64,000 nucleotides of DNA, from positions 4,898,001-4,962,000 of the forward strand of contig NZ_CP117167.1 of NCBI RefSeq assembly GCF_028596025.1, written 5' to 3'. This stretch comes from Mucilaginibacter jinjuensis. GTDB lineage: Bacteria > Bacteroidota > Bacteroidia > Sphingobacteriales > Sphingobacteriaceae. The notes beneath the pieces are model-generated. The model saw only the letters and a program-made list of their open reading frames with translations. It ran no database searches and was not told where the DNA came from. Below, in pieces: positions 30,053 through 45,963 of this stretch (positions are counted from its first letter, which is position 1; each line of letters begins with the position of its first letter). The position numbers and the translations under genes are program-made.

Positions 30053-31705
30053 CTATTTCTTCAAATAGCTCTCCCGCACTGCCTTAAACTCCGAGCCTTG
30101 TTTCCATTGCGGCCATTCATTGCTGTAGGCTAATTTTTTTCCGACTAAGAACACCAGCCTTAAATCTTCGATGGTGCCGCTTACATCCCATTTGGTGGCA
30201 TCGTATTCGTCGTTGGGTTTGTGGTATACGCTGCTGTTGTAGTATTCGTGCATTTTCAGGCCGGCTTCTTTGCCCTGGGCCACCAGGTCGGTACCGGTTT
30301 CGATATATAAGGCAGGGATACCTACTTTAGCAAAGTTAAAGTGGTCTGAACGGAAATACATCCCTTTTGATGGCACAGCCTCTGGCTCAATGTGGCGGCC
30401 TTGTGTTTTTGCAGCTTCGGCCAGGTAATCTTCCAGTTGCGATTGTCCGTACCCTACAACCGAAATATCCTTAGTTTTTCCGTAGGGATAAAACATGTCC
30501 ATATTAATATCAGCCACTGTTTTATTTTTAGGGAAAGCCGGATTTTCAGCATAGTAAGCCGATCCCCATAAACCCTGTTCTTCTGCTGTTACTGAGAGGA
30601 AAATAATGGTACGCTCTGGCTTCGTCTTCATACTTTTAAAAGCTTTAGCCAGTTCAAGCAAACCTGCAGTTCCGCTGGCATTGTCAATGGCTCCGTTATA
30701 GATACTATCGCCTTTGGCATCGGGTTTACTGATACCGAAGTGGTCCCAGTGTGCAGAGTAAATAATGCACTCATCGGCATGTTTAGTCCCTGTAATTTTG
30801 GCAATCACGTTGTGCGACTGGTTGTACTTGCACGTAGTACTTAAACCGGTTGTGATATTCAAGTTCAATGGGCTGCCTTTAAAACCTGGGGCCAATGCTT
30901 TAGCCAGCATCGTTTTATAATCTGTGCCGATGGTTGCAAACAGTTTTTCTGTTGCTGGTAAAGTTAACCAACCTTCAAAAGCACATTTGTAGCTTTCGTG
31001 ACCACGCGGGTCGAGGTATAGTTTAGATGCCTTCCAGCTATTAGCAACTACGCTAAATCCATAAGCAGCAGGTGCAGTATCATGGATAATTAAACAACCT
31101 TTTGCACCATGTTTGGCGGCTTCGTCGTATTTATAAGTCCAGCGGCCATAGTAGGTCATGGTTTTACCTTTAAATTGTTTGGCATCGTAATACCCCGGAT
31201 CATTCACCAGCACCACTACAATTTTGCCTTTGACATCCAGCCCGGCATAATCATCGTGATTAAACTCTGGTGCCGAAATACCGAAACCTGCAAATACCAA
31301 TTCTTCATTTTTAAGGTCGATACGGGCATCGGTGCGGCGTGTCCATAACACGTAATCTTTTAATCCTTCCAGATCGAAACTGGCGTTGGCACCGGTAACC
31401 TTCATCTGCGGATCGGGATTGGTGTAGATAGATACCATTGGCACTGGCTGCAAATAGCTGCCTTTATTGCCTGGCTCGAGACCCAAAGCTTTAAACTGGC
31501 CTTGCAAATAATCGAGCGTAGCGGTTTCTCCCGGACTAAACGGCAGGCGTCCCTGTAGCTTGTCTGACGATACTTCGCTTACGTATTTACGGTAACTGGC
31601 TTCGCTGAAGGCGTTTAGCCCATCTGTATTTTGAGCCATCGCTTGGTACAAACTGCCGGTTAAACAGACTGCAAGCAGGGAGCGCTTTATGTTTTTGATA
31701 TTCAT
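30053..31705 (-). CDS. Secreted M28 family zinc aminopeptidase with PA domain
   Basis: 550 residues. Signal peptide 1-24 (ending AMAQ). Residues about 110-230 form a protease-associated domain. The M28 catalytic domain follows, with zinc-ligand and catalytic segments SAHWDHFG (His319), AIDNASGTAGLLELA, VTAEEQGLWGSAYY (general base and ligand glutamates), INMDMFYPYG (ligand Asp) and SDHFNFAKVGIPAL (last His). Family members remove N-terminal residues from peptides in the periplasm or at the cell surface. Single gene. Confidence 0.94.
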   Translation of the reverse strand: MNIKNIKRSLLAVCLTGSLYQAMAQNTDGLNAFSEASYRKYVSEVSSDKLQGRLPFSPGETATLDYLQGQFKALGLEPGNKGSYLQPVPMVSIYTNPDPQMKVTGANASFDLEGLKDYVLWTRRTDARIDLKNEELVFAGFGISAPEFNHDDYAGLDVKGKIVVVLVNDPGYYDAKQFKGKTMTYYGRWTYKYDEAAKHGAKGCLIIHDTAPAAYGFSVVANSWKASKLYLDPRGHESYKCAFEGWLTLPATEKLFATIGTDYKTMLAKALAPGFKGSPLNLNITTGLSTTCKYNQSHNVIAKITGTKHADECIIYSAHWDHFGISKPDAKGDSIYNGAIDNASGTAGLLELAKAFKSMKTKPERTIIFLSVTAEEQGLWGSAYYAENPAFPKNKTVADINMDMFYPYGKTKDISVVGYGQSQLEDYLAEAAKTQGRHIEPEAVPSKGMYFRSDHFNFAKVGIPALYIETGTDLVAQGKEAGLKMHEYYNSSVYHKPNDEYDATKWDVSGTIEDLRLVFLVGKKLAYSNEWPQWKQGSEFKAVRESYLKK

Positions 31706-31905: not shown

Positions 31906-32079
31906 ATGAAAGAGAAAATTGAACTGGATATAAATACCGACTTATCCATCCCGGCCAAAAAAGCATGGCAAAAACCGGGTGTCGAAATTATAAGTCAAGA
32001 CATCGAATCCGGGCAGGCTGGAATTTTCCAGGAAGCAACCTTTGCCGGTTTAGATCCATTTTCGCTTTACAATTCTTAA
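31906..32079 (+). CDS. Orphan 57-residue peptide resembling a RiPP precursor
   Basis: ATG at 31906 opens a 57-residue frame (MKEKIELDINTDLSIPAKKA at the start). It contains KKAWQKPGVEII near residues 18-29, the K-x-W/Y-xx-P pattern of Bacteroidota ribosomal-peptide leaders that are read by PqqD-like recognition domains, then an SG pair (35-36) and a tail with Gly, Phe and Ser/Thr. An intrinsic terminator follows 13 nt after the stop. No modification enzyme (radical SAM, B1/B2 lasso, lanthipeptide or grasp) is adjacent. Its identity as a precursor is inference from the leader pattern; it could also be a small regulatory or structural protein. Confidence 0.5.
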   Translation: MKEKIELDINTDLSIPAKKAWQKPGVEIISQDIESGQAGIFQEATFAGLDPFSLYNS

Positions 32080-32091
32080 CTTATATGCTCT

Positions 32092-32128
32092 GGCGCAAGT
32101 ATTAGCTTACGCCCTTTTATTTTTTTTT
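32092..32128 (+). terminator. Intrinsic terminator after the small peptide gene
   Basis: GGCGCAAG, 5-nt loop, GCTTACGCC (one mismatch) is followed by CTTTTATTTTTTTTTAA. It supports the 31906-32079 frame as a separate transcribed gene. The word TGGCGCAAGT recurs in another hairpin at 32293-32310. Confidence 0.8.
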
Positions 32129-32360: not shown

Positions 32361-32463
32361 TGCGATTCCCCTCTCGAGAGGGGTGCAGGGGTGTGTCCCT
32401 GCATGTAAAACACAGCCCTGCCATCACACAATTGCGGCCCGCCCCCTCTCGAGAGGGGGAATT
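32361..32463. repeat. Palindromic repeat type D within a 5' leader
   Basis: CCCCTCTCGAGAGGGG at the left and CCCCCTCTCGAGAGGGGG at the right are each perfect palindromes and are also inverted copies, with GCAGGGGTGTGTCCCTGC between. The right arm ends only 27 bp before the UbiD start codon. Confidence 0.85.
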
Positions 32464-32489: not shown

Positions 32490-34331
32490 ATGGGTTACAA
32501 AAGCTTACAAGCCTGCATTACCGATCTGGAAAAACATGGTCACCTTATCCGTATTAAAGACGAAGTTGACCCTTATTTAGAAATGGCTGCTATACACCTG
32601 CGCGTGTTTGAACAGCAGGGGCCTGCCCTGCTCTTCGAGAAAGTAAAGGGCAGTAAATTCCCTGCGGTTTCTAACCTGTTTGGCACGCTCGAGCGGTCGG
32701 AATTTATTTTCAGGGATACGCTGGAGAAGATCAAGACACTGGTTGATATCAAAAGCGATCCGCTGAAAGCTATTAAAAACCCGGTTAAATACGCTAATGT
32801 TGCCATGACTGCGCTTTCGGCCTTACCCATGAAAGTGAGTAGCAGTAACATTAAAAACTTCAACAAAACCACCATTGATGCCCTGCCGCAGATTGTGAAC
32901 TGGCCTATGGATGGCGGCCCGTTTGTAACCATGCCCCAGGTTTATACCGAGGATATGGACAAGCCCGGCATCATGAACGCCAACCTGGGTATGTACCGCA
33001 TCCAATTGGGTGGTAACGATTATATCCAGAACGAGGAGATCGGCCTGCATTATCAATTGCACCGGGGCATCGGCATCCATCAAACTAAAGCAAACGCCAA
33101 AGGCCAGCCCTTAAAGGTGAGCATATTTGTAGGTGGGCCGCCATCGCACCCGGTTGCAGCAGTAATGCCCTTACCAGAAGGATTATCTGAAATGACTTTC
33201 GCCGGAGCACTGGGTAACCGACGCTTCCGATACTTTTATGATGCCGAAGGCTTCTGCATTTCTGCCGATGCCGATTTTGTAGTTACCGGCACAGTAATGC
33301 CGCACGAAAATAAACCCGAAGGCCCATTTGGCGATCACCTGGGTTATTACAGTTTAACGCACCCTTTCCCGCTGATGAAGGTGCATAATGTGTATCATCG
33401 TAAGGATGCCATCTGGTCGTTCACCGTAGTAGGCCGACCGCCACAGGAGGATACCAGCTTTGGCGCATTAATTCATGAGATCACCGGCTCTGCTTTGCCT
33501 AAAGAAATACCGGGTTTACATGCGGTAAATGCGGTTGATGCTGCAGGTGTTCATCCACTCCTATTCGCCACGGGTAGCGAACGTTATACCCCATACCTCA
33601 AAGAGCGCAAGCCACAGGAAATATTAACTATCGCCAATCACATCTTCGGTAAAAATCAACTAAGCCTGGCTAAATACTTGTTCATCGCCGCACAGGAAGA
33701 CGACCCGAAACTAGATGTAAATGATATTTACGGTTTCCTGAAACATTGCCTCGAACGCATTGATTTAACCCGAGACCTGCACTTCCATACCCGCACCACC
33801 ATTGATACCCTCGATTATAGCGGCAGCGGATTGAATAGCGGCAGTAAAGTAGCAGTGGCAGTGGCAGGTGATAAAAAAAGAGAGCTGTGGTCAGAGTTAC
33901 CAACTGATTTTACCCTGCCCGAAATCTTCACAGATTATAAATTAGCCATGCCTGGAGTACTGGCAGTTAAAGCACCCAAATATCAATTGGAGCTGGAAAC
34001 CCAAAGACAGGTAAGCACCCTAAACGACCATTTTAAAACAGCTGATCTTAGCGGCCTGCCATTAATGGTTTTGTGCGACGATGCCCAGTTTACTGCAGCC
34101 AACATTAATAACCTGGTTTGGGTTACGTTTACGCGCAGCAACCCATCGCACGATATTTTTGGTATCAATAGTTTTACAGAACACAAGCACTGGGGCTGCG
34201 CCGGTCCGCTGATTATTGATGCCAGGATGAAACCCCACCACGCGCCCGAGTTGATAAAAGACCCTGAAGTGGAGAAAAAGGTGGATTTATTAGTTAATAG
34301 TTCGTGGTTCATAGATCATAGTAAGAAGTAG
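32490..34331 (+). CDS. UbiD family (de)carboxylase
   Basis: 613 residues, within the UbiD range for the long Bacteroidota form. UbiD enzymes use prenylated FMN to decarboxylate aromatic and unsaturated acids. The N-terminal alpha/beta domain begins at residue 1 and the cofactor-binding central split-barrel domain starts near residue 130. Conserved blocks visible are LGMYRIQLGGNDY, HYQLHRGIGIHQTKA, VFVGGPPSHPVAAVMPLPEGLSE-type and EGPFGDHLGYYS. In Bacteroidota such a gene is commonly linked to menaquinone (futalosine-type) biosynthesis, which is inference here. The family's flavin prenyltransferase UbiX is not in the window. Confidence 0.92.
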   Translation: MGYKSLQACITDLEKHGHLIRIKDEVDPYLEMAAIHLRVFEQQGPALLFEKVKGSKFPAVSNLFGTLERSEFIFRDTLEKIKTLVDIKSDPLKAIKNPVKYANVAMTALSALPMKVSSSNIKNFNKTTIDALPQIVNWPMDGGPFVTMPQVYTEDMDKPGIMNANLGMYRIQLGGNDYIQNEEIGLHYQLHRGIGIHQTKANAKGQPLKVSIFVGGPPSHPVAAVMPLPEGLSEMTFAGALGNRRFRYFYDAEGFCISADADFVVTGTVMPHENKPEGPFGDHLGYYSLTHPFPLMKVHNVYHRKDAIWSFTVVGRPPQEDTSFGALIHEITGSALPKEIPGLHAVNAVDAAGVHPLLFATGSERYTPYLKERKPQEILTIANHIFGKNQLSLAKYLFIAAQEDDPKLDVNDIYGFLKHCLERIDLTRDLHFHTRTTIDTLDYSGSGLNSGSKVAVAVAGDKKRELWSELPTDFTLPEIFTDYKLAMPGVLAVKAPKYQLELETQRQVSTLNDHFKTADLSGLPLMVLCDDAQFTAANINNLVWVTFTRSNPSHDIFGINSFTEHKHWGCAGPLIIDARMKPHHAPELIKDPEVEKKVDLLVNSSWFIDHSKK

Positions 34332-45800: not shown

Positions 45801-45963
45801 CGTCATTGCGAGGTACGAAGCAATCGCGAACTTTACAGAGCGGTTCTGTAGGTCGGGGATTGCTTCGTTCCTCGCAATGACGTGTACGGCGTTGGCCTTG
45901 CGCGATTCCCCTCTTGAGAGGGGTGCAGGGGTGTGTCCTTTATTGAATAACACACTCCGCCAA
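45801..45963. repeat. Adjacent type C and type D repeats
   Basis: 45801-45882 is a complete type C palindrome (CGTCATTGCGAGGTACGAAG and the inverse). 45901-45963 is a type D segment (GATTCCCCTCTTGAGAGG and CAGGGGTGTGTCC) like that before the UbiD gene. Confidence 0.85.

Follow-up and report, generated by a model that had tools for sequence, protein, structure and literature searches.

A small gene of Mucilaginibacter jinjuensis that very probably encodes a lasso peptide precursor, far from the lasso enzyme genes of its genome

In the lasso peptide systems closest to the one considered here, B1 is the leader-binding protein; a kinase puts a phosphate on the final Ser of the still linear precursor and the B2 protease cuts, after which ring closure is the task of the cyclase. 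A nucleotidyltransferase then attaches a sugar to the phosphate and an exporter secretes the product (PMC9266682, PMC8498205, PMC10368454). The paeninodin type of Paenibacillus and other Bacillota, with its kinase PadeK, resembles the system of M. jinjuensis in the K-x-W-x-x-P motif, the C-terminal Ser, the HPr-kinase-like protein, the B1, B2 and cyclase proteins and the ABC exporter; its precursor gene adjoins the cyclase gene, the acceptor is Asp and Thr stands at position -2 (PMC9266682). The leader profiles of both also match, whereas the host system differs by a proposed Glu acceptor, by Ile or Val near the cut and by precursors that are unlinked to the enzyme genes. Pseudomycoidin, which is phosphorylated and glycosylated (PsmK, PsmN), has in common with the host a kinase together with a nucleotidyltransferase and a C-terminal Ser that is decorated, in the host by inference (PMC9266682, PMC8498205); in the host, on the other hand, GT2, sulfotransferase and APS kinase genes are found together, their chemistry being inferred. 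Since sulfotransferase genes occur in lasso clusters of Bacillota, the host sulfotransferase gene is not new in itself (PMC8498205). Lasso precursors with Ile or Val at -2 have also been published, for example BsfA of Bradymonas, which is similar in its kinase, its split B1/B2 and, if the host core starts at Ser35, its hydrophobic residue in place of Thr(-2), and which differs in that Ser3 is phosphorylated and the precursor is encoded within the cluster (PMC10368454). Caulosegnins likewise derive from several precursors with one enzyme set, but these are three and lie inside the cluster, compared with about 18 outside it in the host (PMC13352647).

The lasso class and Ser-tailored lasso peptides are already known. 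Searches of open-licence PMC papers, subscription papers being outside this scope, gave no account of a precursor-free cluster combined with many lasso precursors unlinked to it. In the prochlorosins (ProcM lanthipeptides), one tolerant enzyme processes many, partly unlinked precursors with a common leader and a variable core; their chemistry is different and their enzymes are unrelated to those of the host, which leaves an analogy only. About 18 scattered genes that appear to be served by one distant precursor-less cluster represent an unusual organisation of lasso peptide biosynthesis. The usual place to look for a lasso peptide is beside the cyclase gene, and a genome of this kind would be scored as containing a substrate-less cluster while its roughly 18 likely substrates were missed.

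The small gene and its surroundings

The window, i.e. the whole stretch of DNA analysed, covers 64,000 nucleotides (positions 4,898,001-4,962,000 of a single contig of 6,157,393 bases). A sequence-only reading of the window had singled out a 57-residue ORF with a K-x-W-x-x-P leader and an SG pair, and the ORF was found to be as described (Table 1). Its full translation is MKEKIELDINTDLSIPAKKAWQKPGVEIISQDIESGQAGIFQEATFAGLDPFSLYNS, in which KKAWQKPGVEII spans residues 18-29 and the SG pair is at 35-36. Judged by its sequence, the small gene very probably encodes a lasso peptide precursor. The core had been called rich in Gly, Phe, Ser and Thr, which overstated Thr, present only once. The terminator proposed behind the ORF has the expected shape, a hairpin and a T-run, but cannot be called strong, the stability of the 56-nt hairpin region being ordinary (z -1.04, with 30 of 200 shuffles folding at least as well).

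Table 1. Features of the proposed precursor gene (window positions) and of the distant enzyme cluster, locus L040
Feature	Position	Strand	Basis
Lasso peptide precursor gene (proposed)	31906..32079	+	ORF from ATG to TAA, 57 aa plus stop; family membership
Leader	31906..32010	+	Residues 1-35 (core from Gly36) or 1-34 (core from Ser35); alignment
K-K-A-W-Q-K-P recognition motif, proposed B1 contact	31957..31977	+	Invariance of W and P; contact inferred from lasso B1 proteins
Core in the Gly1 register, GQAGIFQEATFAGLDPFSLYNS	32011..32076	+	Spacing geometry
Terminator-like hairpin and T-run	32092..32128	+	Hairpin 32092-32113, T-run to 32128
B2 protease	5,654,454-5,654,834		Score 78.6, cut-off 33
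B1, PqqD-like	C1:5654108-5654383, outside the window		NF033536 score 65.7, cut-off 80
Asn-synthase-like cyclase, 633 aa	L040		NF033535, 410 bits, cut-off 525
HPr-kinase-like protein	L040		HPr-kinase models below cut-off only, 35.8, cut-off 200

The ORF is flanked upstream by a divergent M28 peptidase gene (30053-31705, minus strand) and downstream by a UbiD-family gene (32490-34331, plus strand), in agreement with the earlier statement that no modifying enzyme is adjacent. In genome G050 the M28 and UbiD genes are adjacent; the small ORF that separates them is a different one and a precursor was not seen there. In G002 the neighbourhood of the site differs. Searched alone against Pfam and NCBIfam, the ORF gave no match, a result which by itself would have pointed to a non-gene. 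The only Rfam match around the ORF (E 0.89) was dismissed as meaningless. The palindrome CCCCTCTCGAGAGGGG is present in two copies between the precursor and the UbiD gene (32368-32383 and 32443-32458) and, with one mismatch, in a third at 45908-45923, where none would be expected by chance in the window; these palindromes look like a REP-type element pair.

A scattered precursor family and a distant enzyme cluster

Searching the host genome (G000 in the genome comparisons) with the single protein gave seven further matches at E ≤ 10 (best 4.3e-4), of which four had E ≤ 0.011, and with profile A1, built on nine sequences, 18 matches at E ≤ 10, all of which had E ≤ 0.0025. With a profile of the leader only (22 positions), 18 members were recovered at E ≤ 1e-3, scattered over the chromosome. 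The paralogous leaders which the sequence-only reading had proposed to look for are therefore present, 17 further ones of the same kind being dispersed in the genome. At the same threshold, the leader profile found 18 members in G057 (Mucilaginibacter sp. PPCGB 2223), 11 in G128 (a lichen MAG, 86% complete) and a single one in each of G085, G437, G300 and G040; five B2-lacking congeners (G001, G002, G008, G009 and G012) yielded none. The leader-profile set and the earlier ones are not fully independent, as the leader segments were taken from members first found by core-containing queries. G057 and the lichen MAG are relatives that repeat the many-precursor layout, and the three genomes together provided a set of 50 precursors (18 in the host, 19 in G057 and 13 in G128), in which one of G057 and two of G128 exceed E 1e-3.

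The host members have the K-x-W-x-x-P pattern in common and divergent cores; W and P are invariant in 20 of 20 rows of alignment A2. The aromatic-x-x-P-x-hydrophobic motif of lasso leaders (YxxPxL/WxxPxL) is met by the ORF with W-Q-K-P-G-V, host leaders having W-x-x-P where lasso leaders may have Y-x-x-P. The paeninodin family model NF033524 did not match the ORF at E ≤ 1 and matched 3 of 20 relatives weakly (best E 0.0076). Several candidates were rejected: matches beginning SKRAWG in B2-lacking genomes come from reading a tRNA pseudouridine synthase gene in antisense, a match at E ≤ 1e-4 in the B2-lacking G018 is likewise antisense to a pseudouridine synthase gene, and the other matches at E ≤ 0.01 in the family-wide search were put down to chance, the frames that contain them being 469-661 aa long. 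When 395 genomes sampled across the class were searched, only two further genomes came up, with one weak match each. In G268, of the Pedobacter group, seven lasso-like precursors with K-x-W-V-K-P-E leaders, all with a terminal Ser, are packed in about 1.6 kb (L099, 745-2332), about 6 kb from a B2 gene.

The genome search for B1 and B2, also proposed earlier, revealed both in a precursor-free cluster, and the lasso requirement of B1, B2 and a cyclase in the genome is met in the host. B1 and the cyclase score under the NCBIfam cut-offs, yet they are best matched by lasso models, and B1 resembles TbiB1 of the PDB (E 6.3e-10). The genes around B2 follow the order APS kinase, cyclase, SET-domain protein, sulfotransferase, HPr-kinase-like protein, B1, B2, ABC exporter, NTP_transf_5 protein (nucleotidyltransferase) and GT2 protein. 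Only a single B2 of the host exceeds the cut-off, the second PF13471 match (E 0.047) containing stops, and a second Asn-synthase-like protein, with 29% identity over residues 4-299, is encoded about 19 kb from B2. The window ORF lies 724,548 bases from B2; the two host precursors nearest to B2 are at 26 and 64 kb and the remaining 16 at 0.35-2.9 Mb. No convincing precursor was detected in the 20 kb around the cluster, the best candidate (E 0.0064) being an antisense frame to the cyclase start, and a lasso precursor inside its own enzyme cluster is accordingly not met in the host. The suggestion of an orphan RiPP precursor whose enzymes are encoded elsewhere is thus supported by the lasso-type leader, a B2 some 0.72 Mb away and 17 more leaders. 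In G128 the gene order of the cluster is conserved, B1 and B2 being about 95% identical, and the contig, which starts within the cyclase gene and leaves the upstream side unseen, carries no precursor. In G057 the cyclase is on a different contig from B1, B2, the kinase and the sulfotransferase. A 2OG-Fe(II) oxygenase gene lies close to this unlinked lasso cyclase (L279:11913-12560), and similar-looking proteins were noticed by eye in lasso regions of G075 and G120. In three genomes (L130:15654-17419, L133:15410-17120, L135:10505-12212), lasso genes have beside them a tandem of three proteins of about 180 aa (M-D-x-x-x-G-E-I-R...), which may resemble phage tail-collar-like proteins. In G085 (L128:317-8560) and G437 (L132:107-7174), the lasso cluster adjoins what by eye appear to be exopolysaccharide genes.

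The link between orphans and lasso enzymes rests on several observations. Precursors with the same leader are encoded directly behind the cyclase at five loci of Bacteroidota (L162, L163, L164, L167 and L169) and, with weak scores, at many loci of Bacillota. In one hhalign comparison, the leader profile matched a Bacillota leader profile with a probability of 95.5 and an E of 1.5e-8, a flattering value given that the 13 Bacillota precursors of the latter (A7, one of them 5 kb away) had been chosen as A2 matches at E ≤ 1 near cyclases. In the family sample of 399 genomes, 18 have a B2 match, 17 of them above the cut-off. Among the matches listed (up to 16 candidates per genome), a precursor match at E ≤ 1e-6 was obtained in six genomes, G000, G057, G075, G085, G300 and G437, all six of which carry B2 (3.4e-9); without G000 and G085, which had supplied profile rows, the four remaining strong-match genomes all carry B2 (2.9e-6), both figures being uncorrected for kinship. 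Among the matches listed, the 12 remaining B2 genomes show no precursor match as strong as E ≤ 1e-6; G049, G120, G135 and G426 contain precursors of other types. G075 has one precursor copy beside B2 and more elsewhere, with a 7-residue spacing in the four examined, and in both G085 and G437 the one strong match is about 26 kb from B2.

Core spacing, terminal serine and ring register

A C-terminal Ser is present in 17 of the 18 host precursors and in 48 of the 50 from the three genomes, the two exceptions being a tandem copy with a different end and a precursor that also lacks Glu. Two of the 50 are decayed. In the ORF itself, the proposed acceptor is Glu43 of the precursor, and Ser57, the C-terminal residue, is the proposed phosphorylation site, the modification being inferred. 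The residue seven positions before the first core Glu is Gly in 32 of 48 precursors, Lys in 12 (all from G057), Ser in two, His in one and Asp in one, the last being L060, for which the script took a too-early Glu; L055, whose text anchor failed, and L121_3371, which has no Glu, were left out. Shuffled cores had Gly at this position 5.3 times on average and 14 times at most in 2000 rounds. The 17 precursors which are not among the leader-profile rows, six of them previously found by core-containing queries, gave a comparable picture, with a terminal Ser in 16 and, seven residues ahead of Glu, Gly in 11, Lys in three, Ser in one and His in one, the remaining one having no Glu. On the sequences of the 50 precursors, the Gly-to-Glu spacing is that of lasso macrolactams.

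The lasso core test, a small N-terminal residue with Glu or Asp 7-9 positions on, is met by the ORF, in which Glu43 is position 8 counted from Gly36 or position 9 from Ser35. Two registers fit. In the first, Gly1-Glu8 would apply to most precursors (rings of 7-9 residues), with Ile or Val at -3; in the second, Ser, Gly or Ala would be residue 1 and Glu residue 9 in most (rings of 8-10 residues), with Ile or Val at -2, the usual place of Thr. Gly1-Glu8 is favoured by the ring sizes and Ser1-Glu9 by the leader profile alignment, which pairs Ile-Glu-Ser with the Thr-Met-Gly/Ala of Bacillota precursors; the register is inferred and both stay open. The Thr at -2 usual in lasso precursors is absent from the ORF, which has Glu or Ile there depending on the register. 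In G057, Lys stands seven residues before Glu in 12 of the 18 Glu-bearing cores, as opposed to Gly in the other genomes, and could be Lys1, in a ring of 8 residues, or Lys2, in a ring of 9.

Proposed processing in trans and its alternatives

An alignment of ten kinases revealed K133, D150 and D151 as invariant and H112 as nearly so. The paeninodin-type test, a C-terminal Ser together with a lasso kinase with H-K-D-D, is met, the mapping of these residues to the published motif being our own, and the ORF is best read as a paeninodin-type precursor. The gene, its family, the spacing, the conserved Ser, the single B2 and the co-occurrence are established at the level of sequence; every enzymatic step, their order, the threading and the secretion are inferred. 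The PqqD-like B1 would bind the W-x-x-P leader and the HPr-kinase-like protein would phosphorylate the C-terminal Ser, which may be decorated further by the nucleotidyltransferase, the glycosyltransferase and/or the sulfotransferase, the latter fed by the neighbouring APS kinase (a role inferred from gene content). B2 would then remove the leader next to Ser35-Gly36, the cyclase would link the new N-terminus to Glu43 around the threaded tail and the ABC exporter would secrete the product. With one enzyme set for about 18 unlinked precursor genes, the genome would thus encode a small library of tagged lasso peptides. In the absence of expression, binding and product data, we give a probability of about 0.78 to the ORF being a lasso peptide precursor that acts in trans.

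The rival that survives best, though an unlikely one, is that the orphans represent relics: duplication or transfer would have scattered the copies, which kept the leader and lost processing or expression. Two visibly decayed members out of 50 would agree with it, and so would the lack of a common promoter box: the Bacteroidota -7 consensus is TAnnTTTG, and a shared promoter of this kind was found upstream of only 2 of the 18 host orphans, shuffled sequences giving a mean of 2.6. The window ORF also has no orthologue among 149 congeners (best foreign match 5.3e-4), which puts its own selection beyond test. Relics would however hardly keep a C-terminal Ser in 48 of 50 and the Glu spacing in nearly all, nor would G128 be expected to retain the cluster, with its nearly identical B1 and B2, without an adjacent precursor. 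Moreover, in the clearest orthologous precursor pair (G000 and G128), dN is 0.21 and dS 0.87, a ratio of 0.25 which includes five codons ahead of the likely start, and in the 14 best-scoring pairs the ratio never exceeds 0.69, dS being saturated in three. These codon comparisons point to translated, constrained genes.

Less probable still is that enzymes other than those of the lasso type process the peptides, or that these remain unmodified and serve as signals or B1 decoys. No enzyme gene adjoins the ORF, Thr(-2) is missing and the genome enzyme search did not extend to other RiPP classes, all of which leave room for it, but the leader is common to precursors directly behind lasso cyclases and strong matches in the 399-genome sample are confined to B2 genomes. 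The unmodified signal, which had been offered earlier as a second option, is not excluded without expression or product data; it explains neither the Glu spacing, nor the C-terminal Ser, nor the co-occurrence with B2. A chance ORF with a fortuitous W-x-x-P, compatible with the missing Pfam and NCBIfam matches and with leader look-alikes such as the recurrent antisense frame of the tRNA pseudouridine synthase gene, is scarcely credible when one genome has 18 members, five B2-lacking congeners have none at E ≤ 1e-3 and a related pair shows constraint.

The best reading remains that of one tolerant synthetase acting in trans on many unlinked precursors, with tagging of the C-terminal Ser; processing and role are inferred. 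If this trans reading is true, some 50 natural precursors with very different cores make up a data set on the tolerance of lasso synthetases, and 18 of them share one genome and one enzyme set, so that tolerance could be tested by co-expression. The fuller proposal, in which such a synthetase and a phospho-, glyco- and sulfo-tailoring machinery act in trans on about 18 unlinked, fast-changing precursors and in which the layout developed repeatedly within Sphingobacteriaceae, is held with only slightly more confidence than doubt. The cyclase tree places G000 and G128 as sisters in a supported group with G085, G437 and G300, while G057, in an unresolved fork, and G075 fall outside that group; the many-precursor layout therefore has more than one origin or disappeared in between.
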